Below, in pieces: positions 10,809-60,131 of a stretch of DNA of 64,000 nt. Under the pieces are notes generated by a model. It ran no database searches. It worked only from the letters and a program-made list of their open reading frames with translations, and was not told the origin of the DNA. Origin of the DNA: Psilocybe azurescens (lineage: Eukaryota > Basidiomycota > Agaricomycetes > Agaricales > Agrocybaceae); the NCBI GenBank assembly GCA_023853785.1, contig JAJIRX010000611.1, positions 1 to 64,000 of the forward strand, written 5' to 3'. A program made the translations under genes and the position numbers. Numbering within the stretch: position 1 is the first letter of the stretch; the number at the start of each line of letters is the position of its first letter.

Positions 10809-11919
10809 AATCCATGTGTAGTTTACAGTGCCCCCATTTTCCGTTGGACTCCAACGGACTTTCACCGGACCCAGCCAATTCCAATGGACAGTCCATTGGA
10901 CGTCCAACGGATTCCGTTGGACTCCACAAAACTCCGGTACCAGTCCAGTCAGAGTCCGGCCAAATTCCGGTCAAAGTCCGGTCAAGTCACTTCAAGACAG
11001 AAAACAGGTGGACTGGCCGGACTGTCCAGTCCGTTGGACTTCCACTGGACTTCCACTGGACTCTCAGCACTTAATTAGACCAGATCCAAGAGTGCTCTGT
11101 CCAGTGGAGTCCAGTGGATGTCCAGTGGATGTCCAGTGGACTGTCACTGGTTTAATTGCAGACTTGGGAGGGGAGTTAGGGACAGTAGCAGTGTTCTTGG
11201 AAGCTTTGGGAGCCATATTAAGGAAGCTAGGTCACTAGGATAATACTTCAATCTTATCTTTAATTTATGTAACAATGTAATATAATATATTGAAAACTAT
11301 ATACTACATTATTATCTGACTTGTGTACTTTACCTCCACCTAGGAGCTCCATGTGGAGTCCACCGACTCCATACAAAAGTGGTGGACTCCACATGGACTC
11401 CATCTGGAACATATGCAAATGTCCCAAATATTATCTTTGGTAGGTGGAGTTCAGATGGACTCCAGGTGGACTCCAGGTGAACTCCAAACAATTCCACTTA
11501 AGTCCAACTGGAGTCCAGATAGTGTCCAGGTGGAGTTCAATTAGACACCACCTGGAGTCCACCTGGACTCCAGTTGGAGTTCCCAACTTTAACTTCATGG
11601 AATAGAATTCAATTGGATTCCAACTGAAATATATTAATGTTTCAATCTTAATGTAAATTCATATAAGTGTAATATAATATATTAACAACTATCTATTACA
11701 TTGTTACATACTGTGAGATCCATCATTAAAAAATTAAAAAACAAAAACAAAAACATAAATTTAAAAAGAAAAATGGGGATGGAGGTACATACCTGGGTCA
11801 GATGAACAAATAAACATATAAATGTAAAAGAAAAAAAGGGGAAAACCTTAAAAAAGGGGGCGGGAGGGTCATCGTCATGGGGTGCGTCGTGTCGGGTGTA
11901 CGTGGCCATACGGCGGTGT

Positions 11920-12880
11920 TGTCCTACACCCCGCCATGTCCGTCGTTGTTGTCTTCGCTGTCGCCGTCTTGCCCTTGCCCTTGCCCCGCCCCCCGTCTCG
12001 CCTCACCTCGCCCGCCCCGCCGTCTCGCCTCACCTCGCCCGCCTCTGCCATCTCGCCCTCACACCTCCGCCGTCTCGCCTCACCTCCGCCGTTCGCCTCA
12101 CCTCCGCCGTCTCGCCTCACCTCCGCCGTCTCGCCCTCACCTCCGCCGTCTTCGCCCTCACCTCCGCCGTCTCGCCCTCACCTCCGCCGTCTCGCCTCAC
12201 CTCCGCCGTCTTCGCCTCACCTCCGCTGTCTCGCCTCACCTCCGCCGTCTCGCCTCACCTCCGCCGTCTCGCCTCACCTCCGCTGTCGCCCACCTCCGCT
12301 GTCTCGCCTCACCTCCGCCGTCTCGCCTCACCTCCGCCCGTCTTCGCCCTCACCCCCGCCATCTCGCCCTCACCCCCGCCATCTCGCCCTCACCCCCGCC
12401 ATCTCGCCTCACCCCGCCGTCTTCGCCCCGCCGTCTCACCCCTCGCCCTGCCCCCGCCGTCTCGCCTCATCTCGCCCTCGCCCCGCCGTCTCGCCTCGCC
12501 CCCGCCGTCTCGCCTCGCCCCGCCGTCTCGCCTTACCCTCACTGTCTCGCCCTCGCCCTCGCTCTCGCCTCACCGTCTTGCCCCCGCTGTCTTGCCCCCA
12601 CCGTCTTGCCCTCACCGTCTTGCCCTCACCGTCTTGCCCTCACCGTCTTGCCCCGCTGTCTTGCCTCGCCCTCACCCACACCCTCGCCCTCACCGTCTTC
12701 GCCCCGCCGTCTTGCACCACCCTCGCTGTGCCCGTCGCTGTCGCTGTCTCGCCGCACCGTCTTCGCCCCCCACCCTTGCTGTCGCTGTCGCCGTCCTTGC
12801 TGTCGCCCTTGCCGTCGCTGTCGCCCTTGCCGTCGCTGTCGCCCTTGCCGTCGCTGTCGCTGTCGCCGTCGTCTACGTTC
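11920..12880 (+). repeat. Pyrimidine-rich hypervariable array
   Basis: Dozens of variants of CTCGCCTCACCTCCGCCGT give way to CCCTCACCGTCTTGCC and then to GTCGCTGTCGCCGTC triplets near the 3' end. The strand carries almost only C and T plus G in CG/GT steps. All three forward frames are therefore free of stop codons for about 1.1 kb. Equivalent arrays occur at 29,350-29,950, 37,300-38,190 and (complement) 40,560-41,360. Confidence 0.85.
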
Positions 12881-13136
12881 CCGTCATCAGCGGTCGTGGT
12901 CGTGGCTGTCGTGGTTGTGTTCGTCCTCCGTCAGCGTCGGGTTGGCTTTTGCCTGGCTCCGACTGACGAGGGCGGTAGTGGTGGTGGTGGTGGAAGAAAA
13001 AGTGGGGCCGGAATCAACAACAGACCGACGTGGCATCAACATGTCACGCACGCGTTGTTGTTTGTCCCGTGCCGAGCAGTGCCGAGAATTTCGGCAGCAT
13101 CACTATCTATTTAACTAATTTTATTATTTTCCATAA

Positions 13137-13220
13137 GCCTTTGTGGCTCAGTTGGTTTATCCGCTTGCGTTCGGCATTCTCCGATGCCCGAGTTCAATTC
13201 TCGTTAGTGTCTTTTTTTTT
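13137..13220 (+). other. tRNA-like Pol III unit inside the element
   Basis: It begins GCCTTTG and continues TGGCTCAGTTGG, a good A-box. About 47 nt later GAGTTCAATTCTC fits a B-box with one change. The B-box sits in a CGAG/CTCG hairpin, and GGCAT/ATGCC forms another stem. A run of nine T's follows at once, as in a Pol III terminator. The acceptor stem does not pair, so this is a tRNA-derived promoter unit and not a working tRNA. Confidence 0.5.
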
Positions 13221-13567
13221 CTATACTAGTATAAATTATAATAAAAGGACATCCGTTGGACTTCCATTGGAATTCCGTTGGACTTGTCCGCTGGAATTCC
13301 AATGGTCATGTCCAGTGGGATTCCGATGGACTTCCATTGGACTTCCGTTGGACTTCTGTTGGTTCTGTCCGGTCATTTCCAGTGGACAGTCCGCCCGGAC
13401 AGTCTGTTGGACTTGTAGTCCGGTCGGACTTTCACCGGAATCTCACCGGAATCTCACCGGAAAATTTCAGCAGTCCTAGACCAGAAAAATTGTCATTCTG
13501 AATATAGAAAGTCTGACAGAGTCCGACCGGAGTCCGACCAAAAAATGGGGGGCCGTGTAAAGACCTC

Positions 13568-18020: not shown

Positions 18021-18061
18021 CCCGATACTGCTTGTGGATGAAGCAGTATGGTAGAGTGAGA

Positions 18062-18072
18062 AGCTAGTTCTT
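18062..18072 (-). promoter_or_regulatory. Self-complementary primer binding site (Tf1-like)
   Basis: Directly inside the 5' LTR the sense strand reads AAGAACTAGCT. Its exact complement, AGCTAGTTCTT, lies inside the LTR at 18,192-18,182. This matches the self-priming arrangement of the Tf1/sushi gypsy lineage, in which the first 11 nt of the transcript anneal to the site next to the LTR. I saw no resemblance to a common tRNA 3' end. Confidence 0.6.
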
Positions 18073-26549: not shown

Positions 26550-27790
26550 CAGTACTTTACAGTGCCCCACTGGTACCAGTCGGAACCAGTTGGAACCACT
26601 TGGGCCTAGTCAGAACTAGTCAGAACCAGTTGGAACCTGGTTGGAATCCACTCAGAAATTTTCAGAATGTACTTCAAAACTGGTCAGAATAAGGTTGGAA
26701 TTTCTCAGAATGTACTTACTCAGTGTACAATACAATGCATAGTCAGCCTTACATAATAATTGCTTACATATGCTTATAAATAATGTATTGAAATGACATG
26801 ATATTGTATGCTTAGTCAGTATTACATAGTATTTCTTATATAAGCTCTTAAGTAATCCATTCAGGTCACATGATATTTGTGATAAGTGCAAAATTATAAA
26901 ATACACTTAACAGGAATTGAACCATCAGCTTTATATATATTAATTCTACACATGCATTACCAACTACATTATTATTGCTTGTGGTATTTTCAATATTTTA
27001 TGAATTATATACTATTCTTTACAACACCCAATAATATATTCTAGCACTTCCTCTGAGGCTATACCCACATATTATATATCAAAATGATTAGAAAATTGAG
27101 GGTAATGTGCCTGTAATTGTATCGTTATGTAAATATTGTGTCAGTATGTTCAATATATAAAATAATGTAAATTAGAATATATATGGACATTATAAACCAC
27201 TTTTTGCAACAGAATAGAACATTGTCAGCTATATTTTAATAGTATAGAAATAATAGAAATTCATAGAATACAAAAATTAATTTTATTTAAGAAATTTAGA
27301 TTATGTAAACATAGATTTATATGAAAAATAGGTATTTCTTTACCAGAAAATTTTCAAATTTATGTAGCTATTACATAAATATATTCTTCTAAATTTTACA
27401 ATTTTAACAATACCAAATTTGTCACAAACTGATAAGATCTATGTATACTGTTTGCGTTATTGCTTGCTAAGCTGTAAATAGTATGCCGACATTATACAGT
27501 TCTGCTTGGTACCACTCAGATTCCACTCAGAATTGGGTCTAATTAAGTTTAAAATTTATATGAATTCCACTTGGATTCCAGTCAGATTCCAGTCAGATTT
27601 TGGTCAGACTCAGTAATGGTGGAACTGGTTGGTACCAGTGATTCCAATCAGAATCCGGTCAGAAAAATTTGGACATTTTCCTGCTAATTTAGCAGGGACA
27701 CTGCCAAATAAAATTCCAGTCAGAACCAGTCAGATTCCGGTCAGATTCTGACTGGTTCTGACTGGAAACTGTGGGGAGTGTAAAGACCTC
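26550..27790 (+). mobile_element. CTTTAC element, subfamily 2
   Basis: Tips are CAGTACTTTACAGTGCCCC and GGGGAGTGTAAAGACCTC. The flanks duplicate CAAACAGTC (26,541-26,549 and 27,791-27,799). Subterminal arrays are built from CCAGTCAGAACC/GGTTCCGACTGG-type repeats. The interior is AT-rich, non-coding, and lacks the CT array and tRNA-like unit of other subfamilies. Two more copies are at 51,466 (reverse) and 54,437. Confidence 0.85.
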
Positions 27791-28753: not shown

Positions 28754-29717
28754 ATGTACTTTACCTCCACCCAGGCACTCCATGTGGAGTCCACCGACTC
28801 CATACAAAAGTGGTGGACTCCACATGGCCTCCATCTGGAACATATGCAAATGTCCCAAAAATTATCTTTGGTAGGTGGAGTTCAGGTGGACTCCAAAAAT
28901 TCCACTTAAGTCCAACTGGAGTCCATGTAGAGTCCATGTAGAGTCCAGGTGGAGTTCAATTAGACACCACCTGGAGTCCACCTGGACTCCAGTTGGAGTT
29001 CCCAACTTTAACTTCATGGAATATAATTTAATTGGATTCCAACTGAAATATATTAATGTTTCAATCTTAATGTAAATTCATATAAGTGTAATATAATATA
29101 TTAACAACTATCTATTACATTGTTACATACTGTGAGATCCATCATTAAAAAATTAAAAAACAAAAACAAAAACATAAATTTGAAAAGAAAAATGGGGCTG
29201 TAGGTACATACCTGGGTCAGATGAACAAATAAACATATAAATGTAAAAGAAAAAAAAAAACACAAAAAAAGGGGGCAGGAGGGTCATCGTCATGGGGTGC
29301 ATTGTGTTGGGTGTATGTGGCTGTACGGCAGTGTCATCCTACACCCTGCTGTGTCTGTTGTCGTTGTCCTTGCTGTTGCTGTCTCACCCTTGCTGTTGCC
29401 ATCTTGCCCTTGCTGTCATTGTCTTGCTCTTGCTGTCACCATCTTGCCCTTGCTGTTGCCGTCTTGCCCCTGCTGTCTCAGCTCTCACACTTGCCCTGCC
29501 ACCACTGTCTTGCCCTCACCCCGCCGTCTTGCCCTCATCCTCACCCTCACCCTTGCTGTCTTGCCCTCACCCTTGCTGTCTTGCCCTCACTCTTGCTGTC
29601 TTGCCCTCACCCTTGCTCTTGCCTCACTGTCTTGCCCCCGCCATCTTGCCCCTGCTGTCTTGCCCTCACTGTCTCACCCTCACTGTCTTACCCCGCTGTC
29701 TTGCCCCCGCCATCTTG

Positions 29718-29761
<44 letters not shown>

Positions 29762-30583
29762 GTCTTGCCTTGCCGTCTTGCACTCACCCTTGCTGTCACT
29801 GTCTCACTGCACTGTCTTGCCCCCACCCTTGCTGTTGCTGTCTCACCGCATTGTCTTGCCCCACCTTCACTGTTACTGTTGCTGTCCTTGCTGTCACCCT
29901 TGCTGTTACTGTTGCCATTGTCTGTGTTCTCATCATTGCAGTACTCCTTGTCTGTGTCTGCATTGTTGTTGTTGTTGTTGTTGTTGCAGTCATGGTCATG
30001 GCCATTGTGGTCATGATCATCCTCCGTCGCATCAGGTTGGCTGTCGCCTGGCTCCGACCAACGAGACGGTAGTTGTGGTAGTGGCTGGAAGAAAAGTGGT
30101 GCCGGCGTACCAATGTGGCAACAACAGGTCACACACATGACATTGTTTAATATGTGCCAAGAATTGCCTAGAAATTATGCTAATTGGTAGATATGGAATT
30201 ATTTTATAATATTTATCAAAGCCTTTTGGTTCAGTTGGTTTATCACCTTGTTTGGTGTTCTCGGATGCATGTGTTCAATTCCTGCTGATGCATGTGCTTT
30301 TTTTACACTACAATAAAATATAATAAAATACAATAAATGTAAATAAAATCCGGGACATTCCTCCACCTGGAGTCCATTTGAATTTGGTCATGAAATTGTG
30401 TATTCATACTAATAAACATGATTCATGACTTAAATCCACATGAAATCCATATGGAGGATGGGGAACTCCACATGAAGTTCCACATGGAGTCCAGATGGAG
30501 TTCTACATCCTCCACATTGACCCACATAGAGGATGAGTGGATTCTGGCTGGACTCCAGATGGAGCCTCCACCCTAGACCTGTG
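28754..30583 (+). mobile_element. CTTTAC element, subfamily 3
   Basis: The left tip is ATGTACTTTACCTCCACC, followed by GGAGTCCACCTGGACTCC-type arrays, an AT-rich segment, a CT array (29,350-29,950) and a tRNA-like unit. The right array ends near GGAGCCTCCACCCTAGACCT, a poor match to the expected GTAAAGACCTC. Possible target duplication is ACATAGCC/ACATATCC (7 of 8). LINE sequence does not clearly resume on the right, so the right boundary is uncertain. Confidence 0.6.
30221..30304 (+). other. tRNA-like Pol III unit in the subfamily 3 element
   Basis: GCCTTTTGGTTCAGTTGG (A-box) and GTGTTCAATTCC (B-box) are followed by seven T's. It aligns with the units at 13,137, 38,405 and 40,310. Confidence 0.45.
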
Positions 30584-36300: not shown

Positions 36301-36543
36301 AAAGGGGCTCTACACTCAAGAAAATGAGCTTTCTCAACCATTTTTCATCAGAGAAGGCAAAAAATCTATTTATATTGTTTCTTCCTTTTAAGAACTACTG
36401 CTTTTGGGCACCAAATCTTGAAATGGAAACACCGAGTGATCCAAGAGATCTTTTCTGATCATAAGCAGTCCTCACCACTGGAAAGACCCAGTTTGCCAGT
36501 CCTTATATCGAGGATTTGGTATCCTCATATAAGGGCTGGTCAC

Positions 36544-38834
36544 TGTGTACTTTACAGTGCCCCCCATATTCTGTTGGACTCCAACAGACTTTCACCAGAC
36601 CCAGCATTCCAATGGACAGTCCATTGGACATCCAACGGATTCCATTGGACTTGACAAAATTCCGGTACCAGTCCAGTCAGAGTCTGGCCAAATTCCGGTC
36701 AAAGTCCGGTCAAGTCACTTCAAGACATAAAACAGGTGGACTGGCTGGACTGTCCAGTCTGTTGGACTTCCGTTGGACTTCCAGTGGACTTCCACCAGAC
36801 TCTCAGCACTTAATTAGACCAGATCCAAGAGTGCTCTGTCCAGTGGAGTCCAGTGGATGTCCAGCGGACTGTCACTGGTTTAATTGCAGACTTGGGAGGG
36901 GAGTTAGGGACAGTAGCAGTGTTCTTGGAAGCTTTGGGAGCCATATTAAGGAAGCTAGGTCACTAGAATAATACTTCAATCTTATCTTTAATTCATGCAA
37001 CAATGTAATATAATATATTGAAAACTATATACTACATTATTATCTGACTTTGTGAATTTCACTAAGTCCAACTTTAAATTCACATGGAATGGAATCCAAT
37101 TGGATTCCAACTGGAATACTTTAATCTTAGCTTAAATTTATGTGACAATGTAATATAATATATTAAAAATATATACTACATGATTATATACAGGTAAAAA
37201 TAAAATAAAAACATAATAAAAAAGAAACAAAAAAGAAAAACAGAAAGAAAGAATGGAAAAAGGGGCGGAGGGTACATTGGTGGTGTCATCATCCGTGTTA
37301 TCGACGTCATGGTTGGCCGTACCCATTGTTGTATGCGCCGGTGTCACTGTCAGATGTTGTTGCCAGCTGTACCTGCCGTGGTATGTGTTGGTGTCATTGT
37401 TGGTGTCATTGTTGGTGTCGTTGTTGGTGTTGTCCATATGTGTCATGGTACATGTCATGGTACGTGTCGCTGTCATCCGTACATGTCGTGGTACGTGTCG
37501 CTGCCGTCGTTGCGTGTTGTGGTCGTCCCTGTCATCCTCACTGTTGCCGTGGTGGTACGTGTCATCGTGGTCCGTACCCGTTATGGTATGTGTCAGTGTC
37601 ATCGTCTGCCGTGCCTGTTCTGGTACCTGTCGGTGCCTTTGTTGTGGGTTGTTGCAGTCCGTACCTGTCGCGGTACGTGCTGGTGTTGTCATCACGGTCG
37701 TTGTTGCCCCTGTCATCCTGGCCTTCACCATCGCTGTGGTGGTATCCATTGGTGCCATCGTCACAGGTTGTCCTTGTCCTGGCCCTCGCTGCCCTCATCC
37801 TTGCCGTCCTTGCCCTTGCCATCCTTGTCCTTTCCCTCGCCATTTTCATCCTCACCCTTGCTGTTTTCATCCTCACCCTTGCTGTTTTCATCCTCACCCT
37901 TGCTGTTTTCATCCTCACCCTCGCTATCCTTGTCCTTGTCCTTGCCCTTGCTGCCGCCCCTTGTCCTTGCTCTCACTGCCATCCTCGCCCCACGTCCTGG
38001 TCCATGCCGGTGTCTTGGTCCTCACTGTCGCGATCCTGGTCCTAGCCGTCGTCCTCACAGTCCCTTGGCGGCCCTTGCCCTTGCCCTTGCCTTCCCGGTC
38101 CTTGTCATGGTCCTTGTCTGCATCCTTGTTGTCCTTGTCCGCTGACCTTGTCATCGCTGTCATCCTTGTCAGTGTGGCCATCGCAGTTGTTCTCATCCTC
38201 TGTCATGTTGGGTTGGCTCTCACCTGGCTCCGACTGACAAGGCAGTGGTGGTGGTGGAAGGAAAAAGGGTTGGGGTCAGAATCAACAACGGACTGATGTG
38301 GCATCAACATGTCACATGCACATTGTTGGTTGTCCCATGCTGAGCAGTGCTGAGAATTTTGGCCGCATCACTATGTATTTAACTAATTTTATTATTTTCC
38401 ATAAGCCTTTGTGGCTCAGTTGGTTTGTCCTGCTTGCGTTTGGCGTTCTCCAATGCCCAAGTTCAATTCTTGTTTGTGTCTTTTTTTTCTATACTAGTAT
38501 AAATTATAATAAAAGGACATCCATTGGACTTCCATTGGCATTCCGTTGGACTTGTCCGCTGGAATTCCAATGGTCATGTCTGGTGGGATTCTGATGGACT
38601 TCCATTGGACTTCCGTTGGTCCTGTCTGGTCATTTCCAGTGGACAGTCCGCCCGGACAGTCTGTTGGACTTGTAGTCCGGTCGGACATTCACTGGAATCT
38701 CACTGGAATCTCACTGGAATCTCACTGGAAAATTTCAGCCGTCCTAGACCAGAAAAATTGTCATTCTGAATATAGAAAGTCCAACAGAGTCTGACTGGAG
38801 TCTGACCAAAAAATGGGGGGCATGTAAAGACCTC
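36544..38834 (+). mobile_element. CTTTAC element, subfamily 1, complete
   Basis: The flanks duplicate CTGGTCAC (36,536-36,543 and 38,835-38,842). Tips are TGTGTACTTTACAGTGCCCC and GGCATGTAAAGACCTC. Arrays of TCCAxTGGA lie at 36,560-36,860 and 38,516-38,816. Between them are an AT-rich segment, a GTC-rich array (37,300-38,190) and a tRNA-like unit. There is no transposase, so it is non-autonomous. It differs from the 10,815 copy mainly at CpG sites. Confidence 0.85.
38405..38488 (+). other. tRNA-like Pol III unit in the subfamily 1 element
   Basis: GCCTTTGTGGCTCAGTTGG carries the A-box, AAGTTCAATTCTTG the B-box, and eight T's follow. It is nearly identical to the unit at 13,137 apart from CpG-type changes. 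Confidence 0.5.
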
Positions 38835-38842
38835 CTGGTCAC

Positions 38843-38973
38843 CAGTCTACCTCCACCCCTAAATGGCTGGGATATCTGCCAAAAAAGGTTGCTAAACTCC
38901 ATATGGAGTCCACTAACTCTGGCATGGAGTTGGTGGACTCCACATGGAATACCTGGGTGAGGGTAAAGACCTC
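38843..38973 (+). mobile_element. Short subfamily 3 end fragment
   Basis: CTACCTCCACCCCTAAATGG resembles a subfamily 3 left end lacking its tip. It is followed by CTCCATATGGAGTCC and GGTGGACTCCACATGG palindromes, and the fragment ends GGGTGAGGGTAAAGACCTC, the standard right tip. At about 130 bp it is a deletion derivative. Confidence 0.5.
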
Positions 38974-39905: not shown

Positions 39906-40301
39906 TAACTTGTTTTTTTACACACTTGGAGGTCTTTACTGTCCCCCACCTATTCCAGATGGAATCCAACTTCATTCCAGGAATGAAGATGGATTCCATT
40001 AGATTCCAGTCTGAAATCTCATACCATACACCCGGCTATTTTGTATGGGTAAATGAACATGGATTCCAAATGGATTCCAATTGGATTCCAGAAAATAAGC
40101 CATTCCAAATGGAATATTCCAGTTTCATTCCAATGGAATGGCTGGAATCTATATAGAATCCAATTGGAATCCAACTGGAATATCATATATTACATTGGGT
40201 TTGGTCCAATACAGGTCCATTCCAATGTAATAAGGTGGAATCCAAGTGGAATGATATCCCATTATTTTTATTATATTTTATTATAATTTATACTAGTATA
40301 G

Positions 40302-40385
40302 AAAAAAAAGACACAAACAAGAATCGAACTTGAGCATTGGAGAACGCCAAATATAAGCGGGATAAACCAACTGAGCCACAAAGGC
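40302..40385 (-). other. tRNA-like Pol III unit in the subfamily 4 element
   Basis: On the minus strand it begins GCCTTTGTGGCTCAGTTGG, then AAGTTCGATTCTTG, a full-match B-box core (GTTCGATTC), and ends in eight T's. It is the best preserved of the four units. Confidence 0.55.
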
Positions 40386-40559
40386 TTATAGAAAATAAAA
40401 AAACTAGTTAAATACATACTAATAAAGCCGAATTTCTCGGCACTGCTCGGCACGGGCCAAACAACAATGAGCGCGTGACATGTTGATGCCATGTCGGTCC
40501 GTTGTTGATTCTGACCCCCACCCTTTTTCCTTCCACCACCACCACCGCCTCATCAGTCA

Positions 40560-41360
40560 GAGCCAGGGCGAAAGCCAACCTGACGCTGACAGAGGACGAG
40601 AACGACTGCAACGGCCACACCGATGAGGATGAGGACGACTGAGGCAGACGAGGACCATGACGAGGACTGCGAGGGCGAGGACGGCAGCGAGAGCAAGCAA
40701 GGACAACGGCATGGGTGAGGACAACGGCGTGGGTGAGGATGAGAGACGATGGCGAGGGGCGAGTCACGCCAGCATGGGGCGAGGACAACAGCGAGGACAA
40801 TGGTGAGGACAACGGCGAGGACAACAGCGAGGACAACGGCGAGGATGAGGACGACGGCAAGGGCAAGTACGGCAGCATGGGCGAGGACAACGACGAGGAT
40901 GACAGCGAGGATGAGGACAACGGCGAGGGCAAGTACGGCAGCGAGGGCGAGAGACGATGGCGAGGGGCGAGGACGATGGCGAGGGCGAGGACGGCGGCGA
41001 GGATGAGGATGATGGTGAGGGCGAGTACGCCCGGCAAGGATGAGGATGACAGCAAGGGCGAGTATGCTGGCGAGGGCGAGGACGTGGACAGCGAGAACAT
41101 GGACGGTGAGGGTGAGGAAGAGGACAACCCGCTGACGACAGCACCGACGGATACCAACACGGGCGACAACACCGACATGTACCGCGACAGGTATGGACTG
41201 CAACGACACGTGACAAAGGGACCGACAGGTGCCAGGAGAGGCACGGGCGGATGACGACACCGACACATACCACAACGGGTATGGACCGTGACAACACATA
41301 CCACCACAGCAACAGTGAGGACAACAGGGAGACAACCACAACACGCGATGACGGCAGCGA
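40560..41360 (-). repeat. GA/CT-rich hypervariable array
   Basis: On the plus strand it is a run of GGCGAGGACAACGGCGAGGA-type units, so all frames are open over long distances on both strands. It corresponds to the arrays of the other CTTTAC elements. Its right-hand part (to 41,360) aligns with 37,400-37,560 reversed and is interrupted by the insertion at 41,364. Confidence 0.8.
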
Positions 41361-41363
41361 CGC

Positions 41364-43288
41364 TGAGATGTTTAGTGCGGGGTGACTTTGTAATTGCCCA
41401 ATACACAACACCCAATCAAAATATTTATATTGATCAGTTCGATCTGGGAGGGTAAGCTCGTAAGGCTTATTACAATAACTAGTTTAGCAGAGTACAGACT
41501 TAGACGATCGCTCTGGGGTGACCACTAGTAGCTAGAGAACGCTTTTACAGGCTAGTACACACAAGGCACTTGAATAGTAAGGGTGATCTCTCTTATATGA
41601 GGGCGATCACCAATATCAGGGGGATTGCTTTTGGGGGCGAGTGTACACGGGACACTTGACAGTTTCTCTTTATATAACCCAAACTCAAACTTTGTCAAAC
41701 ACTATAAGCGATCACCCGTATTAACACGTAGTAGATCCTTGGTTCCTATAAGCAACTGGGCACACTAGTCCACAGTCCTTAGTTTACTATAGGCAACGTC
41801 CTGAAAACAGTCGGATTTCTCTGACAGTCGTCCCTAGTTACTATGAGCGATCACTAGCCTTTATAGGGTTCCCACCCGTACTTAATAATCCCCAGGGCAG
41901 TCTTACTATAGGCAACGTCCTGAACAGTCGGAGTTCTCTGACAGTCGTCCCTAGTTACTATGAGCAATCGCTAGTCGTATAGGGTTCCAATCCGTACTTA
42001 ACAATCCCCAGGGCAGTCCACGGATGACTTATAAAAGCCTGCTTATCAAATCTAATAGACCTGACGTTGAATATCACAATGGCGATCGCTCACGAAACCA
42101 GGTAGCGCCTAATTGCTTAAGGTGAACTGCAGTGTTCGATTTCTTATCACACAAATCACTAGTCCTCAAGTGTTAACACTAGAATTCTTATTCAGAGTAA
42201 ATTCTGATATCAAATCTGGGGTGTAAATTACTTGGTTCCTATTCTAAGATACAGGACTGTTTTTATAGACTAAATAGATACTTTGGCTTGTGATAATTGA
42301 AAGAGACTAAGAGAAAAGGAAGGAAATGGACCGCGTGCTGCCTAGCCTTTGCTGCACCAATTATAATAGTGGAAAGTACTAGTTTGCCTGGGCTACGGCG
42401 CTTATTTGAAGATAACATGGTTGTCCATGCGGCAGTGCCTTCTTGGGTAGCGATCACCCGACTTATTTTATCAGATGGCTCGCGGCTAAGGCATGTCGGG
42501 ACTAGATTACTTAGGGGTATATTTCCTAGGAAACCCTCCCAAGGTTCCCCAGCACAGTTGCTATTGGTTTAGGACCCCTGGAACAGCAGGTGCCCTTATC
42601 ATGAGGCAAGTTACCTCTAGTATCGTGTGGCGATCGCCGGCTGGGCGATCGCTCACTCACGTTGGCTGCATTGCAAATTACAAGTTGTTATAGTCGGATC
42701 TATTAGACCGCCATATGCTGAGTTGTACACAAGATTTCAATTGCCAATACATTCGGTCCGTGGGGCGATCACCCGTGTGGCGCAGTGATGCCTGATCCCC
42801 AAGCGGTTGATCGCCTAATTTAGTGAACAGCCTTTGTGAGGCCTGGACACAGTGATCGCTTTTGCTAATTAATAAGGTTTTCATCACTTGGCGATCGCTC
42901 GGTAAGACACTGGTGGGTGTTACCCTTGTAAGAGCCAAGGTCATTTCTTAAGGGTTTCTTCTTTGCATGGGACTAATAGTATGATCAATGGAGCGGGCGA
43001 TCGCCCGGACGCTTCGGTTAGGGGTTGCTTTGATAGCTGTGTAGGAAACTAAAGGTAGTCTTTGATTCGTAGCACTGATTAATAGGCCACACTACACCTT
43101 AGTTAGTTTGTAAGGTCTATTACTCTTGTTGGCCCACTAGGAAGTAAAGCCTCAAAGCCTAATAGTCTGGCGTATCTCCTACCCTTCACTAGTATAATGT
43201 ACTAGTTTATTACAGATAACAATCGCAAAAATAAGGGCCTCTGTGTCTCACTATGAATTGTAAGCTCAGAATGGTTTACACCCTTTCA
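41364..43288 (+). mobile_element. 1.9-kb LTR-like insertion rich in GATCGC palindromes
   Basis: It begins TGAGATGTTTAG and ends TTTACACCCTTTCA, that is TG...CA, and is flanked by ACGC (41,360-41,363 and 43,289-43,292). Joining the flanks gives sequence that aligns gap-free with the subfamily 1 array. It has no long open frame. A TATATAA box lies near 41,670. A tandem duplication of about 115 bp occupies 41,790-42,020. It carries roughly a dozen GCGATCGC or near variants (GCGATCACC, GTGATCGC). A large solo LTR is the simplest reading. I cannot name its parent. Confidence 0.6.
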
Positions 43289-43858
43289 ACGCGTACCACG
43301 GTGGGTACAGTCAACAACAACACCCGACGGTGACACCAACACATACAACAACAGGTATGGCCGACCACAACGTCGATAACACGGACGATGACACCACCAA
43401 TGTACCCTCCGCCCCCTTTTTCTGTTCTTTCTATTTTTTTTTTTTTTTTGCTTTTTTTATTATGTTTTCCTTTTTTATACCTGTATATAATCATGTAGTA
43501 TATAGTTTTTAATATATTATATTACATTGTCACATAAATTTAAGCTAAGATTAAAGTATTCAGTTGGAATCCAATTGGATTCCATTCCATTCCATTCCAT
43601 GTGAATTTAAAGTTGGACTTAGTGAAATTCACAAAGTCTTATTGAATGAAATAAGCTGGAATGAACTTGGATTCCAGTTGGAATGGGCTCATTCCATGAT
43701 TCCCAGCCATTCCACTTGAAACCATTAAATGGAATCAAATTGGAATTGGTCTGGATTCCAACTGGAATTCAACTGGAATCCATGGAATCAAGTTGGATTC
43801 CATGGATTCCATTTGGAATGGGTGGGGGACAGTAAAGTACTGCACACTTGTATTTAAT

Positions 43859-44488: not shown

Positions 44489-44529
44489 TAATAATAATAA
44501 ACACTATGATTGGGACCTATGGTGGAAGA

Positions 44530-45934
44530 GCTGATAGAGTCCAGGTGGACTCCAATTGGAGTGCCAACTTTAACTTTGAATAGAACAGAATCCAGTTGGA
44601 TTCCAACTAGAATATTTCAATCTTTCAATCTTAGTGTAAATTCATGAGTGCAATATAATATATTAATAACTATATACTACATTATTATCTACATGCAAAG
44701 TCCATTGTAACAAAATAAAATAAAAATAAAAAACATAACAGAGTAAAAAGATGGGCAGGAGGGTATATACTTGGGTTAAATGAACAAACAAACACATAAA
44801 TGTAAAAGAAATTGAGAGAACAAAAAGAAAAAAAGTGAAAAAATTTTTTTTAAAAAAAGGGTGGCAGACAGGTGGTCATATCGGTCATACATGCCATTGT
44901 CATGGTGGGCGTGGTACGCATCCACTGTGTCGTCATCCTTGGCGGCCGTTGTGTTCATTGTGGCCATCATGTGTGGCCATCATACTCGGTGTTGTACATG
45001 TCATTGTTGTTGTCGTTGTCATCTTTGCAGCCGTCGTGTCCATTGCACACGTCATGGGTACTGTATGTCAGTGTCATACTCGGTGTCATGTGTGTTGTTG
45101 TCATGGCTGCTGTGTGTGTTGTACATGTTGCAGTACACGTCCTGCATGTTGTGGTACGTGTCCTGCGTGTCGTTGTCATTGTTCCTACGTGTTGTGTCTG
45201 CTTTGCATGTACTGTTGTCATACCGTACACATTGCGTGTGTTGCGGTACGTGCAGTATGTACGCATACGCCATCGCTCTATATGAGAAAGAGGGGGAGGG
45301 TTAGTGGCAGCAGTGGGTGGGGTTCGCAACTTACCTGGTGTCGTGGCCACGTTCACATCGCCTTGTTTTCTGCTCGCATCCCCTCCCCTTGTTCCACCTT
45401 GTTCCCTCTCGGTCCAGTGTTGTCGTCATTGTATACAGATCCATCGTCATTGTCATTGTACCGTGTATGCATGTCTGGAGTCGTTGTCATTGTACATGGA
45501 CCTGTCATCAGTCAGTGGTGCCACAATGCATGTCAGGTCAGGTTGGCGAGTGCCTGGCTCTGACCAACAACAGCGAGGTGATGAGGACACACATGACAGT
45601 GGCAGCAGGGTGGTGGTGGTTGGAGGAAGAGGTGATGTGGTTGGAGTAACCAACGGACCGACGTGGCAACCAAAAGTCATGCACGTGACATTGTTCACAG
45701 TTGCTGAGAATTGCTGAGAAATAATATCCAATTTTAAGTCTGTTTATGGTTCCGTTTTTGGTTCCGTTCTGGGCTATTCTGTTTTGTAAACAGATTCTGT
45801 TCAGTTCTGCTGCAGAATCCGCCATTCAGCCAGAATTGATATTAAATAAAATAGCAAGGCCTTGTGCCATATTTTTGCTCTCATTCCACAGTGGACTCCA
45901 GCGGACTCCAGCCGGAATATGTGGGGACACAAAG
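44530..45934 (+). mobile_element. CTTTAC element, subfamily 3-like, left tip missing
   Basis: The AGTCCAGGTGGACTCC array and the AT-rich segment (ATAATATATTAATAACTATA) align with the 28,754 copy. A TGTCATTGTTGTTGTC-type array spans 44,880-45,560. The right end reads GTGGACTCCAGCGGACTCC and then GGGGACACAAAGCCCTC, a degenerate tip. No tRNA-like unit was found, and no target duplication, so it may be truncated or recombined. Confidence 0.5.
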
Positions 45935-49801: not shown

Positions 49802-49889
49802 ATAGTGGTAATAAACAAAGAAATTTGTATATACCTAAAGAGTATTTGAATTGTTGATTGACCATGATAGCGACAACAAAAGTAAATGC

Positions 49890-50540: not shown

Positions 50541-50605
50541 ATAACCTCAACTTTGTGAGTGTTTTTTTGAGACCTTCCATCATACATTAAGTTCTTAGGC
50601 TGATC

Positions 50606-51465: not shown

Positions 51466-52630
51466 GAGGTCTTTACACTCCCCACAGGTACCGATCAGAA
51501 TTTTATTTGGCAGTGTCCCTGCCAAATTAGCAGTAAAATGTCCAAATTTTTCTGACCAGATTCCGACTGGATTCCGATCGGAACCACTGGTACCAACCAG
51601 TTCCACTGTTACCAAGTCTGACCAAAATCTGACTGGAATCTGAGTGGAATCCAAGTGGAATTCATCAAATTTGAAACCCAATTAGACCCAATTCGAGTGG
51701 AATCCGAGTGGTACCAAGCGGAACTATATTATGTCGGCATACTATTTACAGCTCACCAAGTAATAACACAAAAGTATACATAGATCTCAACAGTTTGTGA
51801 CAAATTTGGTATTGTTAGAATTGTAAAATTGAGGAGAATATGTTTATGTAATAGTTATATAAAATTAAAAATTTTCTAATAAAGAAATACCTATTTTTCA
51901 TATAAATCTGTGCTTATATAATCTAAATGTCTTGAATAAAATTAATCTTTGTATTCCATTAATTTCTATTATTGTAAAACTATTAATATATAGCTAACAG
52001 AGTGCTATTTTGTTGCAAAATGTAGTTTACAATATCTATATATATTTAAATTTACAGTATTTTGTATATTGAACATGCTGACATAATATTATAATGATGG
52101 TGTAATTACAGATGCATTGCCCTCAATTTTCTGATCATTTTAATATATAATATGTGGGTATAGCTTCAGAGGAAGTGCCAGAATATATTATTGGGTGTTG
52201 TAAAGAATAGTATATAATTCATAAAATGTTGATAATACCACAAGCAATAATAGTGTAGTTGGTAATGTGTGTATAGAATTAATATATATGAAGCTGTTGG
52301 TTTAATTCCTGTTGAGTGTATTTTATAATTTTGCATTTATTACAAATATCATGTATCCTGAATGATTACTTAAGAGCTTATGTAAGAAATATTATGTAAT
52401 GCTGACTAAGCAGACTATATCATGTGATTTCAATACATTATTTATAAGCTTATGTAAGCAACTATTATGTAATGCTGACTAAGCATTGTATTATACACTG
52501 ATTAAGTATGTATACATTATGAGAAATTCCGACCAGTTCCAAAGTGGGTCCAAGTGGATTCCGACCAGTTCCGATTGGTTCCGACTGGGTCCAAGCGGTT
52601 CCAACCGGTATCCGTGACTGTAAAGTACTG
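51466..52630 (-). mobile_element. CTTTAC element, subfamily 2, reverse copy
   Basis: The flanks duplicate CCTTCAGA (51,458-51,465 and 52,631-52,638). The left tip is GAGGTCTTTACACTCCCC and the right tip is the complement of CAGTACTTTACAG. The interior matches 26,550-27,790 in reverse, including the AT-rich core and the GGTTCCGACTGG-type arrays. Confidence 0.85.
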
Positions 52631-52638
52631 CCTTCAGA

Positions 52639-53195: not shown

Positions 53196-53558
53196 CTAGA
53201 TGACAAGTAAGTATATAACAGTGTAATAGATAGCTGAGCAGCTCACCTCAGTGATAAGACAAATCACTGGGGTGTTTGTGCTCAGACTTCTACCTTAAAT
53301 ACTGCAAAATTAGGTACTGTAATGTATCTAGAAGTAGATAAAAGAATGCTAATCAAGAGGGGATTTAAACAAGGGAAATACCAGGTAAAAGGATTATATA
53401 CAAGTGTTCATAAAAGAGAAAAAAGCGAAAGGAGGAATGAGCATTGTGCCTTCAGAGAGACATAATACAAAGGCATGGATGGATGGTTTGAAAACAGGAA
53501 AGATAAGAAGAATATTAATGTACATACAAAGGAATATTGCTGTGTTTGATATCACAGT

Positions 53559-54436: not shown

Positions 54437-55219
54437 CAGTACAGTGCCCCACCAGTACCAGTCAGAACCAGTCAGAACTGATCAGAATCAGTCGGAATCT
54501 GTTTGGAATCCACTTGGACTGACTCAGAATCCAGTCAGAATCCAATCAGAATTTTTCATAATGTACTTACTCAGTGTACAAAACAATGCATAGTCAGCAT
54601 TACATAATAATTATTTACATAAGATTATAAATAATATATTGAAATCACATGATATTGTATGTTTAGTCAGTATTACATAGTATTTCTTATATAAGCTCTT
54701 AAGTAATCCATTCAGGTCACATGATATTTGTGATAAATGCAAAATTATAAAATACACTTACAGCTATCTGCAAAATAGTAGACTGCTTTCAAAGTTTTGT
54801 GTGTGTGCCTTTGTTTGGTACAAACAGCTCTTTTGGTAAAGTGCAGCTGGCATGACGCAAGCCTTGTTTGCTCGTTTCTCGATGCCCCACAGTGCTTATG
54901 AACCGTTGAATGGTTTGGGAAGTGATTCCTATAGTTAGTGTTCACCAAGGGCATACGAACCTGTGCGGGTTTTCGAGACGGATAGCAGCAGGTACGGGTA
55001 CAGGTCAGCATTTATGTACCCCAGCATAACCCGTACCCTCGCTGAGGGTTTGGCCAGGTCTGGCATGACGGAACGGTGGCCACAGCATGCCAAACAGAAA
55101 CTGTACACTATTCAAATACATGCCGAAATTCTACTGTACAGTTTTAAATATATTTCAAACCTTAAAATCCATCCTGAATCCGCCCTGGCATACCTAGAAA
55201 GACTTTACCAATAATTGTT

Positions 55220-58200
55220 ATGTCGGAATCTCTGGAACCTCCTCCAAAAAAATCCACCTCAGGCCAAATTCTCAGTGTGACAAAAGAAAGCTTACTGCAC
55301 CAATTTCCACGTTCATCAAAGCTGTTCGCCCTAAAAAGAAGACCAAGGTAGCCGACTCGGATGCAGCATCTTTGATCCAGGAGACTGGCACCACTTCTTC
55401 AGTTCAAGAACGGCAGTCTTCCCCATCTGTAACTTCTCGTTGCAAGGTTATTATTAGCAAGGAAGAGGAAGAGGATGATGGTTCTCACCGTGGCCGAACC
55501 CTTGATTGCAATAGCAATGTGATCATGATTTCAGATGAAGAGGCGGTCAGTGAAGAGGCCAAAGAACTTTGTTACGATCTCAAGTTAGAATCACGCAGTG
55601 TGCGTAATCTAACCACCAATCATTTACAAGAACAAGTTCAAGTTCAAGTTGAGCAGGTTAAGCGGGTTGGATTCTCAAGAACTAGCTAAAGAATACAGTA
55701 GATCCTCCCTGGTATAAATACTATGAACTGTACAGCAAGTTGAAACGAGATTGAATGTTCATCAACAGATGTATGTAAGAATAGTGGAAACAGATCGAGT
55801 TGAAATGAGATCAAATGTTCATCAGCAGATGTATACAAGAATAGAGGAAACGAATCAAACATTCATCAAAGATGTATCATAAAAGGTGGAGTCGAAAGTC
55901 CATCGGAGATATGATGGAGTTTTGTAGAATGATTGATGGAAAGGAAAAGGAAAAGAAAAGAAAAGAAAAGAGAAAAGAAAAAGAAAAAGACTTGTCATAA
56001 CAAACTTAGCACTGAAAAAGAATTAGGTACGTACAACTAATCTTGTATGACCAGAGACTCACCAAATCCTTTTTCAATACAGAGCGATTGGCAAAGGAAT
56101 GGACTGCCGGTGTCTATGGGTTTTTCAGACCTGATCCAATCATTGAACATGTCAGCAGATGTCATGCTCATACCTTTATCTGTGCTGCGACTCATTGCTG
56201 TGGGCCCACCTGGAACATTTGCTGATTTCTTGACACCAAAGACACAAAGTCCACCAGTAACCTCCATTGGCATGCCCTGAAATGCTGGGGTGAGGATAAC
56301 GTCAAAGCTGCACGAAGTTGTCTTGCTGATGAAGTCTGCAAGGCGACCAAAGGTGCTTCACCTTCCGGTTCAATCACAACTGCATTCAAAAGGAAAGGAA
56401 AAGGTAAGATTAGTTATTCACATTGTCAACACACAAAAACAGAAACCAGGTACATGTAGAACTCACCCAGGAAGAGAATATCACTGAATGTGTTATATCA
56501 AACTGGGCAGAGATCATTCGTTGGGTTGCTGAGAGTTCACGGCCCTTGAACATTGTAAAAGATCACAGGTTCCAAAGCTTGATGAAAATGGGACGCCTGG
56601 AGTACTGGATTCCATCCCCAAGCACAGTTGCCCGAGACATCAAATTGGTGTTTACAAAGACTCGGAATTGGATTGCTAGATTGCTTAAGGTGAGATAACT
56701 TAATATTACTCGACGATTGGGAACTTACTGCTACTAGGACCACCCAGGTGCCCTCAGTTTTGCTACAGATGCATGGTCGTCCCCGAATCATAGGGCCTAT
56801 GTTGCTGTTACGGTCCACTTTGAGCAAGACGGTGTCCCAGTGTTTATGCTGCTTGATATCGTCGAGGTCCCTCACTCCCATTCCGGCCTGAACCTTGCAA
56901 AGGCATTTTCAGATATCCTAGAAGATTTTGGCATATCTGATAAAGTAAGCATTATAGACCTCATATCAGCAGAGCAAAATCATACCTTTTATTCAGATCC
57001 TTAGTATCACCTGTGACAATGCCTCCAACAACGGCACGATGATTGTTGAGCTTTCAAAGCTCATTCCATCCTTCCCCGGCAAATCGAACCTGACATGATG
57101 CTTCAATCACATCCTCAGCCTTGTTGCAAAGACTGCTATTCATGTATTTGATGTTCCGGAAGCTGCAAAAGACATGGTCTTGGACACCACAACTGCTGAG
57201 CTGCTGGAACTGGCAAAAACATCAATTTTGAAGACATCGAGACTCAGGCAGCAGGATCAAATGACGACAACGAGGGCGAAGGCATACTGGGCGACAGCAC
57301 GGATGACTGGATCGACAAACACCTTGCACTATCGGAAGTCAAGCGGGAGGCGTTGGACAAGAGCATTCTTCCAGTTCAGCTGCTACTCGTTAAGGTAAGT
57401 TCAATCTGCATTTCGAATGTAAATGTGGTCACTCACCATGGACTTGGGAACAACAGCTTTGCAAGCTCTCGTGACGCCATCATTCACTCCACCACTCTCC
57501 TTTTGCCTGAGTGGTTCTCGACGTTAAAGGACACAAAAACTCGACAAACGCACGATGCCTCATGATGTTTTGACCCGCTGGAACTCAACCTACGACATGT
57601 TAAAGTTTGTGATTGATTATCGGAAAGCAATCGATCGACTTATGGGGGATAAAAACCTGGGCCTTCAGCAATATGAACTGAGCAATGACGAGTGGGAGAT
57701 AGTGAAACAGTTATCGTTGTTGTTGATGGTGAGTTTAAAACTTCAAATCAACCGCCAGACTGGATGCTTACTAATGACCTCACAGATCTTCAAGGAGGCG
57801 ACCTTGTTCTTTTCGTGCTCAACACCCAACATCCCAATGGTTCTTCCAGCAATGGACCACATTGACAAATGGCTGATGACTGCCTCTGTCAACTCTAAGC
57901 TCCCTGCTTCCATCCGTGCTGCCGCTGGCCTGTCCAAAAAGACGTTAAATAGGTACTACAAATGTTCTGATTGCTCCAAGGTTTATCGCATTGCAATGGG
58001 TACGTATTCAAGTCAAATTAATTCAAGATTCAATCTTACACTGACTGTCCTTTGACTTAATGTAGTTCTTGATCCTTGTTGTAAACTCGACTACTTCAAA
58101 ACGGCAAAATGGGAGCAAGAATGGATTGACGAAGCTGAGAGGCTCACCAGGCAAGAGTACATCAACTCATACCAAGACCTCAAAGCTGAGTTTGAGGAAC

Positions 58201-58779
58201 CAAGCATTGCTCTTACTGCACAGGCTCAGAAGAAGGTATGTGACTTGTTGACTATGATATGATAAATCTAAACTCTACTCAGAATGTGTCATTATCAACC
58301 AATATTTTTGACACTCTCCCCGCATTTTTGGCAACGCCGTCTTTCACTGAGCAAGACGAACTTTCTTGATACCTCGCTGAAGATGTTATTCCAATGAAGC
58401 CACAGGACGCACTCTCCTGGTGGGCTTCCAAGATGAACATCTACCCTCGCCTCTCGTGAATGGCCCTTGATTACCTTTCCATCCCTGGTATGATAGCATT
58501 TTTTATGCATTGACTGCAACCACACTAATATACTCCTCAGCTACTTCAGTTGACGTTGAACGTGTATTTAGCCGCGGCCGAATTCTTCTGTCCCATCTTT
58601 GTAACTGCACGTCTCCTCAAACAACTTGTGCTCTCATGTGTTTGCAGGTTTGGAGCATTCTCGGCTATGTAAAGAATAAGGACATGCTGTCTGTTACACG
58701 CTTACCTGAGACACAAGGTGACGATGATGAGGACTTAGATGATGGCTGGGATGATATCAAGTGTAAATACATGCACTGA
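55220..58779 (+). pseudogene. hAT-family transposase, multi-exon, interrupted
   Basis: The start at 55,220 gives MSESLEPPPKKSTSG. An acidic region (SKEEEEDDG) is followed by a solo LTR in the exon. A BED-type zinc finger spans about 56,170-56,320 (ICAATHCC... LHWHALKCWG). The RNase H-like core follows: LSFATDAWSSPNHRAYVAVT near 56,755, ITCDNASNNGTM near 57,005, and HDVLTRWNSTYDMLKFVID near 57,560. The insertion domain contains LDPCCKLDYFKTAKW. The C-terminal hAT dimerisation domain reads ALSWWASKMNIYPRLS and SVDVERVFSRGRILLSH. Short introns separate exons. Stops at several sites indicate an inactive copy. Direct repeats of GGGTACAGGTCAGC near both ends (about 55,000 and 58,930) probably mark hAT subterminal regions. 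Confidence 0.8.
55570..56002 (-). repeat. Solo LTR of gypsy family 1
   Basis: It begins TGTTACGATCTC and ends TCATAACA on the plus strand, collinear with 18,073-18,481. The flanks duplicate AACTT (55,565-55,569 and 56,003-56,007). It lies within a transposase exon; dropping it together with one AACTT joins EEAKEL to STEKEL in frame, and a GTACGT donor follows. An internal partial duplication (GAGATTGAATGTTCATCA and GAGATCAAATGTTCATCA) makes it longer than the other copy. Confidence 0.9.
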
Positions 58780-60131
58780 CTAACAAACATGTTAGTACTA
58801 GCATTAGGTATGTATTGTATATACATGACCTGTCAGAACCCGTCCCAAACCCGTCAGACCCGCGCTACCCATGTACAAACCCTGACCTGCACCTGCACCC
58901 ACCTGTCAGATAGGGGTACATGCAGGTCAGGGTACAGGTCAGCTCATTTCTACCCGCTGGTTACCCATGGTGATCACTACCCATAGTGAGTTCAATATCC
59001 TTCATCCTCATATCACACGGAGACATTGTAAGAACAAGTTTTTTCTGTTCTTCTGAGATATAGCAAAAGTTTCCCATAGCAGAAGAGTCAGACAGTGTTA
59101 GATTGAGATATATATTGAACTATAGACAGGCAGGCAGTTTAGCTATACATAACAGGTGGAAACCCAACCCCACTGTAATGTCATAATACCAAAAGAGCTG
59201 TTTGTACCAAACAAAGGCGCACACATGAAAATTTGAAAGCGGTCTACTATTTTGCAGATAGCTGTAACAGGAATTGAATCAACAGCTTTATATATATTAA
59301 TTCTACACATGCATTACCAACTACATTATTATTGCTTGTGGTATTCTCAACATTTTATGGATTATATACTATTCTTTACAACATCTAATAATATATTCTG
59401 GCACTTCCTCTGAAGCTATACCCACATATTATATATCAAAATGATCATAAAATTAAGGACAATGCACCTATAATTACATCATTATCTGAATATTATGTCA
59501 GCATGTTCAATATACAAAATACTGTAAATTTGAATATATATAGACATTGTAAACTACTTTTTGCAACAAAATAGCATTCTGTTAGCTATATTTTAATAGT
59601 ATTGCAATAATAGAAATTAATAGAATACAAAAATCAATTTTATTCAGGAAATTTAGATTATATAAACACAGATTTATATGAAAAATAGGTATTTCTTTAC
59701 CAGAAATTTTCAATTTTATATAACTATTACATAAACATATTCTCCTCAATTTACAATTCCAACAATACCAAATTTGTCACAAACTGTTAAGATCTATGTA
59801 TACTTTTGTGTTATTACTTGCTGAGCTGTAAATAATATGCTGACATAATATAGTTCTGCTTGGTACCACTTGGATTCCACTCAGAATTGGGTCTAATTGG
59901 GTTTTAAATTTGATGAATTCCACTTGGATTCCACTCAGATTCCAGTCAGATTTTGGTCAGACTTGGTAACAGTGGAACTGGTTGGTACCAGTGGTTCCAA
60001 TCAGAATCCAGTTGAAAAATTTGGACATTTTCCTGCTAATTTGGCAGGGACACTGCCAAATAAAATTCTGGTCAGAACCAGTCAGATTCTGACTGGTTCC
60101 AATTGGTACCTGTGGAGGAGTGTAAGACCTC

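Follow-up and report, generated by a model that had tools for sequence, protein, structure and literature searches.

Nested Insertion as a Probable Source of Mosaic Types in the CTTTAC Elements, a Modular, Apparently Non-Autonomous DNA-Transposon-Like Family of Psilocybe azurescens

CTTTAC Elements in the Window

The first 64,000 nucleotides of contig JAJIRX010000611.1 of Psilocybe azurescens (assembly GCA_023853785.1; C520:1-64000 in our numbering), hereafter called the window, are dense in mobile elements. Among them are copies and fragments of elements with shared terminal sequences, which we call CTTTAC elements (Table 1) and which were compared with copies elsewhere in the assembly (70.4 Mb, 937 contigs). 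The original prediction, made from the window, divided them into four subfamilies (SF1 to SF4) with different palindrome-like subterminal arrays, and proposed that SF1, SF3 and SF4 have one interior in common and had swapped only the arrays. We found that the interior is indeed shared, and that the mosaics probably arose through the insertion of one family member into another.

Table 1. Copies and fragments of CTTTAC elements in the window, with the sub-features discussed in the text
Feature	Position	Strand	Length	Target duplication and remarks
Three-part mosaic	10816-13567	+		Outer ends without duplication
SF2 copy, CCAGTCAGA / GGTACC arrays	26550-27790	+	1241 bp	CAAACAGTC (9 bp)
SF3 copy, GGAGTCCACCTGGACTCC arrays	28754-30583	+		Decayed 3' tip
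SF1 copy, TCCAnTGGA arrays, probably SF4-derived interior	36545-38834	+	2290 bp	CTGGTCAC at 36536-36543 and 38835-38842; one extra base at the 5' end
SF1's own (first) AT block	36970-37043
Start of the probably SF4-derived interior in SF1	37047-37190	+		GACTTTGTGAATTTCACTAAGTCC, one GGAATCCAATTGGATTCC unit, second AT block
tRNA-like RNA polymerase III (Pol III) promoter unit	38412-38488	+		A box TGGCTCAGTTGG 38412-38423; B box GTTCAATTC 38461-38469; T run 38481-38488
Short SF3 3' end fragment	38890-38973	+		Terminus GTAAAGACCTC
SF4 copy, GGAATCC / TCCAnnTGGA arrays	39929-43842	-	3914 bp	CACACTTG
Older truncated relative (AT block, part of the 3' interior)	44519-45929	+		Decayed 3' tip
SF2 copy	51466-52630	-	1165 bp	CCTTCAGA
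SF2 copy, interrupted	54437-60131	+		ACCTTGGC; TA-flanked insertion at about 54761-59264

Five of the copies in the window retain both ends and are flanked by target duplications of 8-9 bp, and an unoccupied site of the insertion at 26550 was found at C730:161841-161987, where 147 bases aligned to the joined flanks with 76% identity. Judged by eye, the SF3 copy has a probable duplication, ACATAGCC / ACATATCC, with one mismatch. The SF4 copy is enlarged by an insertion (about 41385-43290, by eye); other SF4 copies measure 2.0-2.6 kb (L056, L065, L068 and L073). This insertion carries repeated GCGATCGC / GGCGATCGCT palindromes and is perhaps another transposon with an array unit of its own. The TA-flanked insertion in the third SF2 copy has 81-bp inverted ends (CAGCTATCTGC...) and contains a broken hAT-type transposase gene (match at 58358-58498); a search for an 8-bp duplication that would mark a hAT element of its own yielded nothing convincing.

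Terminal Sequences and Target Duplications

The tips were borne out as near-constant at many copies: exact tips are about 8-9 times more frequent genome-wide than the same patterns read backwards. The corrected 5' tip is CA or GT followed by GTACTTTAC. It takes the form CAGTACTTTAC in most SF2, SF4 and SF5 copies (SF5 being a fifth type, described below) and GTGTACTTTAC in SF1 and SF3; the window copy at 54437 has CAGTACAGTG. Exact genome-wide matches numbered 278+249 for CAGTACTTTAC (backwards 33+35), 196+178 for GTGTACTTTAC (backwards 23+24) and 284+258 for the 3' tip GTAAAGACCTC (backwards 28+34). When only the window was scanned and two mismatches were permitted, the tips barely exceeded chance. 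Part of the CAGTACTTTAC matches fall within SF5 elements rather than at their ends, so that these counts are not copy numbers. In SF5 elements, the tip CAGTACTTTACCAT is repeated inside the 5' end, at the point where the GC-rich repeat begins, with an offset of about 360 bp in L002-L004, L007 and L008 and of 207 bp in L040.

The outermost five bases are specific to each end, being CAGTA or GTGTA at the 5' end and, in the inward direction, GAGGT at the 3' end; CTTTAC follows in both cases. Of 16 copies supplied for the comparison of ends, 2 could not be anchored; two of these five bases matched between the ends in 13 of the remaining 14 and one of five in the other. Further inside lies an inverted repeat of variable quality, in which 10-23 of the next 25 bases match.

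All five target duplications named in the original prediction are present in the sequence. Its length of 8 bp proved common, and the family as a whole is mixed between 8 and 9 bp. A script run over the loci examined and the window yielded 31 same-strand pairs of 5' and 3' tips, many of them wrong pairings; 18 of the 31 were complete copies with an exact duplication, and 13 had none. Among the 18, the duplication was 8 bp in eight and unambiguously 9 bp in four, while five could be read as 8 or 9 bp and one (L042) as 7 or 8 bp, an ambiguity that results from the final C of the 3' tip. By eye, no exact duplication was seen at L058, at L061 or at the window mosaic.

The elements thus combine conserved ends with target duplications at many independent sites, as is characteristic of non-autonomous DNA transposons with terminal inverted repeats (TIRs). 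These data support the view that CTTTAC elements constitute one modular, apparently non-autonomous, DNA-transposon-like family with near-constant tips. No description of the family was found in the literature searched, which is not proof of its absence.

Subterminal Arrays

To compare the arrays with chance, 320 bp at each end were scanned alongside 100 dinucleotide shuffles, and in the tested SF1, SF3 and SF4 copies the units lay far above shuffled sequence. TCCAnTGGA occurred 9 and 13 times in two SF1 copies (shuffle maximum 1), and TCCAnnTGGA 10-18 times in copies of SF3 and SF4, three of each (shuffle maximum 3). The SF2 unit CCAGTCAGA occurred six times in two of six SF2 copies and 0-1 times in the other four. 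Sorting into discrete subfamilies, as predicted, held for SF1, SF3 and SF4; it did not hold for SF5 (TCCATATGGACTCC; L040 and L046), since this type mixes the two unit spacings, with 5 and 7 in L046 and 13 and 2 in L040. The arrays are most likely binding sites of a transposase.

The SF3 and SF4 arrays fit a single palindromic unit, GGA-R-TCCA-nn-TGGA-Y-TCC, and are variants of it, so that an exchange confined to arrays is not supported for this pair; the difference between the two probably reflects divergence of one unit. It may be asked whether the same explanation extends to the whole family, all arrays being fast-evolving versions of one ancestral palindrome, homogenised within each element, with nothing exchanged. 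The unit common to SF3 and SF4 and the mixed spacings of SF5 agree with such simple divergence, as do the SF3 interiors, which are 67-74% identical to those of SF1 and SF4. We nevertheless regard it as highly improbable as a general account, and what decides against it is the relationship between SF1 and SF4 described next.

A Shared Interior with a History of Its Own

Alignment of interior blocks confirmed that SF1, SF3 and SF4 share the same interior, which runs in the order AT block, purine run, GC-rich repeat, GTGGTGGTGG-rich stretch and tRNA-like unit. No match to these blocks was found in SF2, including the interior of the copy at 26550-27790, and the truncated relative at 44519-45929 has no match across the tRNA-like unit. 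Sharing by the SF5 copy in L040 is limited to an AT block, some short GC-rich stretches and one piece of 80 bp. A further block labelled SF5, in L046, had made SF5 appear to be a full sharer; this was rejected, the block being an SF3-like piece on the opposite strand.

In the 3' interior block, SF1 and SF4 are 89% identical, whereas SF3 is 67-74% identical to both. The alignment between SF1 and SF4 (E 1e-4, at least 35 bp) is confined to SF1 positions 427-1971 of 2291, with identities of 87-89% in the 5' block, 71% in the GC-rich middle and 89% in the 3' block; at the same settings, the arrays of SF1 and SF4 do not align at all. The reverse is seen in three SF4-type copies (C102, C779 and C16), whose 5' ends are 90-92% identical to the window SF4 copy over 80-91 bp and whose interiors are just 72-81% identical to it. 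Because the SF1 and SF4 arrays are unalignable yet their interiors close, and these three copies show the opposite, ends and interiors must differ in history. Both observations speak against simple divergence, which fails for SF1 in particular.

The GC-rich CTCGCC / GAGGAC repeats of the interior (11850-12920, 29250-30000, 37250-38200 and 40620-41370) are open in several frames. They resemble microsatellites, and recombination along them may be what fuses nested elements.

Nested Composites as Intermediates

The exchange of arrays alone was likewise not supported for SF1 and SF4; the SF1 mosaic is better understood as an SF4 element nested inside SF1. The copy that carries this reading is L072, which together with its left flank L090 (C310:23768-26116) makes up a complete element with SF1 tips, both SF1 arrays and the duplication CCTTGGAG; the left duplication was predicted from the right flank and then found in L090. 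Its 5' part consists of the SF1 tip and array, SF1's own AT block and the start of its own GC-rich interior. There follows SF4 sequence that starts inside the 5' array, at position 177 of an SF4 copy, and extends through the rest of the SF4 interior (84% identity over 606 bp and 81% over 592 bp), then GGACAGTAAAGACCTC, then GAACAACCCTCTGCTTGCTG (AACAACC...), the SF1 3' array, the tip and CCTTGGAG. In GGACAGTAAAGACCTC the 3' tip has its SF4 form; in the SF1, SF2, SF3 and SF5 copies compared, other bases precede the tip. The junction at this inner tip was found at 19 places on 19 contigs with at most 3 mismatches, 11 of them exact, and the backwards control gave 0; since it recurs in this way, the composite appears to have multiplied.

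Present-day SF1 copies fit as a later product. In them, the AT block of the progenitor is fused to SF4 sequence (TTATTATCT|GACTTTGTG), and the inner tip and the next 20 bases, a region inside a GGACAG...CTGTCC inverted repeat, are missing. In the three copies with the inner tip (L069, L072 and L088), the 3' array additionally includes an extra stretch (CTTTGACTGCTGG...). The close similarity of the SF1 3' interior to SF4 would then follow from an SF4 element having inserted into SF1 and lost its own ends.

Other nests were also found. L046 is a complete SF5 element with the duplication AAAAGCAG, inside which an SF3-like interior and 3' end lie in reverse orientation (74% identity over 725 bp to SF3); the inner 3' tip, GTAAAGACCTT, is present and the inner 5' tip absent. 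The outer duplications of L072 and L046 indicate that both composites moved as wholes. In L091+L057, an inserted SF4 5' tip with its array interrupts an SF1 5' end at the AT block. As an ancestor of SF1, L057 was rejected, given that its left flank already bears the SF1/SF4 fusion and the insertion must be a later, separate one. In the window mosaic, the 5' end of SF1 (10816-11322) is followed from 11323 (flank TCTGACTT) by the 5' tip, array and 5' interior of SF3, which are joined through the GC-rich repeat (about 11850-12920) to the 3' interior and 3' end of SF1 (12952-13567). The outer ends bear no duplication, so an exchange of flanks is likely. The two GTGTACTTTAC tips of this mosaic are 507 bp apart, and same-strand GTGTACTTTAC pairs at 495-582 bp were seen 5 times among the 100 places listed (expectation 0.03, for a range chosen around the mosaic's own spacing), which suggests that it or its like recurs elsewhere in the genome.

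Could the arrays have been exchanged through recombination or template switching during repair, with no nested element, in response to the DNA-binding domains of different transposases, much as originally proposed? In its favour are the sharp boundaries observed between the alien arrays and the shared interior, and the coexistence of several KDZ (Kyakuja-Dileera-Zisupton) transposase lineages in the genome. Under template switching, however, one would not expect to find, at 19 places, an SF4 3' tip that separates the interior from the SF1 array, nor the remnant of an SF4 5' array inside L072, and no array type is linked to any transposase; we therefore consider it improbable. L072 also speaks against simple divergence for SF1.

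Phylogenetic analysis of the 3' interior adds a further view. The tree comprised 38 rows: 15 SF1, 16 SF4, 4 SF3-type and 3 without a label, the last (L069, L072 and L088) being SF1 copies with the inner tip, whose SF1 arrays lie beyond it. On this tree the label SF4 requires three changes and SF1 two, and SF1 groups with 13 SF4 rows apart from the three other SF4-type rows, on branches with supports of 93/96 and 94/88, which fall below the threshold of 95/80. The tree is consistent with nesting and is not proof of it; most weight is carried by the fossil nests.

Several points weigh against this reading. In the approximately unbiased (AU) test, trees that keep all 16 SF4 rows as one clade (p 0.113) or all 18 rows with SF1 outer ends as one clade (p 0.379) were retained. 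Of the 19 junction places, L072 alone was read end to end; on the 5' side of L069 other sequence has taken its place, and L088 covers a short stretch. The inner SF4 5' tip, beside which an inner duplication would be sought, is missing in the copies read, and the GTGTACTTTAC pairs about 500 bp apart are known by their spacing alone. Finally, no transposase belonging to CTTTAC elements was found in the copies read.

Taken as a whole, we think it probable that new mosaic types arise by nesting, that the SF4 interior came to lie in SF1 in this manner and that the transposase acts in trans. According to this scheme, one member would insert into the interior of another member of the family; deletions would then take away the inner arrays and finally the inner tips, along with a portion of the host's interior. 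The nested product would be mobilised by its outer ends, with the transposase being supplied in trans by an autonomous element. SF1 would have acquired its SF4 interior along this route, for which the fossil intermediates provide support. We infer the order of nest, deletion and amplification from these stages.

The inner tips of the composites also deserve attention. The inner SF4 tip of L069, L072 and L088 has lost its array; L069 and L072 continue to the outer SF1 tip, and L088 is cut short by the limit of the stretch examined. None of the 38 tree rows was seen to end at an array-less tip, a hint that bypassed array-less tips bear on what the transposase needs.

The tRNA-Like Module

The interiors of SF1, SF3 and SF4 contain tRNA-like A and B boxes of the kind that mark tRNA-derived short interspersed nuclear elements (SINEs). 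Eleven aligned copies, among them a row named SF5 that corresponds to the SF3-like piece of L046, showed no variation at AGTTGGTTT in the A box or at GTT..ATTC in the B box. Across eight diverse rows, mean column identity was 0.93 for the A box and 0.95 for the B box, compared with 0.775 for all 283 columns; windows that matched or beat the boxes, the boxes themselves included, numbered 7 of 173 for the A box and 8 of 193 for the B box. ARAGORN detected no tRNA in the window at default settings and none in the pieces at thresholds of 95 and 85%; at 75%, weak and mutually different tRNAs appeared in five of six pieces. A motif of the SF2 interior, GGTTCAATTCC on the other strand, was considered as a further tRNA-like unit and rejected, as by eye it is altered in the other two window copies.

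A plausible origin, to which we give slightly less than an even chance, is a single insertion of a tRNA-derived SINE into the ancestral interior of SF1, SF3 and SF4; the unit would be the head of that SINE and the boxes a passive relic. The A box, B box, T run and AT-rich tail do resemble a SINE head and tail, and the SF5 copy in L040, with its AT block and 80-bp piece of interior, has no A box by pattern. A passive relic sits less well with boxes conserved above background across diverged rows, with the location of all four window copies of the unit inside CTTTAC elements, and with the 3' tip following within 520 bp of the unit in 32 of the 38 rows. The copies of the unit that were read all lie in CTTTAC elements or their fragments, in the course of work that included no systematic search for free copies.

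A bolder extension of the nesting account is that self-capture is the regular route to new types, with insertion at a preferred spot in the AT block and a selected Pol III-type module handed on from type to type. We consider this doubtful. If true, selection would maintain the module for some benefit to the elements, such as protection from silencing or guidance of insertion, and the passed-over, array-less inner tips would be a natural proof that tips alone are insufficient for the transposase.

Source of the Transposase

The original prediction named hAT or KDZ elements as possible sources of mobilisation. A search for an autonomous element with CTTTAC tips found none. Candidate genes are present genome-wide, with 170 matches to KDZ (PF18758; 150 of 256 candidates scored), 20 to hAT (PF05699) and 2 to MULE (counted with the PF10551 model alone). 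On the basis of this abundance and of the duplication length, a KDZ transposase seems to be the most likely source, with chances that we place at about even.

Thirty KDZ loci sort into about ten lineages. In regions of about 12 kb round the KDZ genes of four lineages, we found neither GTACTTTAC, GAGGTCTTTAC or CTTTAC..CCCC tips nor convincing 8-9 bp duplications with inverted ends or long inverted repeats, and a KDZ gene as a source enclosed by such ends was rejected for these regions. Among the first 100 places listed per tip, inspection by eye revealed no KDZ match with a 5' tip on one side and a 3' tip on the other, both on the same strand and within 15 kb. In C603, an SF4 copy ends before a KDZ gene; in C136, the SF4 copy stops abruptly at L057:1463, with no visible 3' tip from there to the KDZ gene, which may therefore lie in an insertion or beyond the element. 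Ten ORFs (open reading frames) of KDZ loci were compared with Pfam, with a KDZ match in five, a weak B-box-like zinc match in two and nothing in three. At L033 and L051 (C447), a KDZ gene lies near a GC-rich repeated word (GGGGCCGA, GGGCCCGA), possibly part of the subterminal array of a KDZ element.

Within the elements themselves, the ORF lists of ten loci (L039-L042 and L056-L061) were inspected by eye, and the coding stretches fell in later insertions or in neighbours; L058 (1226-4295) contains a DDE_1 / Tc5-type transposon inserted in an SF2 copy. Several longer intervals were rejected as autonomous candidates: those in C102, C32 and C142 have no duplication of the whole interval or contain reverse-transcriptase-like ORFs (by eye), and those in C551 (4.7 kb), C669 (3.6 kb) and C169 (2.9 kb) are SF2 copies with extra insertions.

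A hAT transposase as the source appears unlikely. Its genes are present, duplications of 8 bp are described as typical of hAT elements (PMC12730594), and Marasmius oreades is reported to have short non-autonomous hATs whose termini are shared by an autonomous element (PMC9674265). Some duplications of CTTTAC elements, however, are 9 bp long. Three of the hAT matches near tips were read, others being at C257 and C884: that at C779:284705 lies outside an SF4 copy, that at C8:84344 outside an SF2 copy, and that in the window within a later insertion. The tips, beginning CAGTA, GTGTA and GAGGT, are also without the hAT terminal motif, YARNG.

Comparison with Known Systems

New combinations of ends and interiors in non-autonomous transposons are usually inferred from end products. 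In the CTTTAC family, several stages can be seen in one genome: the nest of L057, with its inner 5' end intact; the partly deleted nest at 10816-13567; L072, with its junction at 19 places, and L046, both of them mobile composites that retain a fossil inner tip; and SF1 in its cleaned-up state. Should the conserved Pol III-type promoter prove functional, its presence in a cut-and-paste element would be unusual. The Pol III-type module and the bypassed array-less tips are the parts most worth following.

Miniature inverted-repeat transposable elements (MITEs) and other non-autonomous TIR elements have TIR-like ends and target duplications, lack a transposase and occur in many copies. CTTTAC elements, in which no transposase was seen, share the ends, the duplications and the many copies with MITEs; unlike them, they are larger and have a GC-rich repeat interior, a tRNA-like module and end-specific tips. 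In SVA-type composites and nested transposable elements, a new mobile unit is built from pieces of older ones. Here, unlike in SVA-type composites, the inner and outer elements are members of one family with equivalent tips, and as a result the outer pair can take over while the inner ends decay.

Among transposons that encode candidate enzymes, 8-bp duplications have been reported for Zisupton and a Dileera, and 7-bp duplications without TIRs for Kyakuja (PMC12730594). KDZ1 of Cryptococcus makes 8-bp duplications, and the KDZ elements of this genus are 9-11 kb long with TIRs of 139-241 bp, two of them having duplications of 4-8 bp (PMC12810828). CTTTAC elements resemble these fungal KDZ elements in those of their duplications that measure 8 bp, and KDZ genes are abundant in the genome studied here; they differ in being mostly 1.2-4 kb long and in not being linked to a KDZ gene. 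The families MarorhAT-4, -10, -11 and -12 of Marasmius oreades have closely similar termini, and most are without the internal transposase section (PMC9674265). Like the MarorhAT families, CTTTAC elements comprise several types with similar termini; unlike them, with their known autonomous partner, CTTTAC elements have some 9-bp duplications and form mosaics that would have arisen via nesting.

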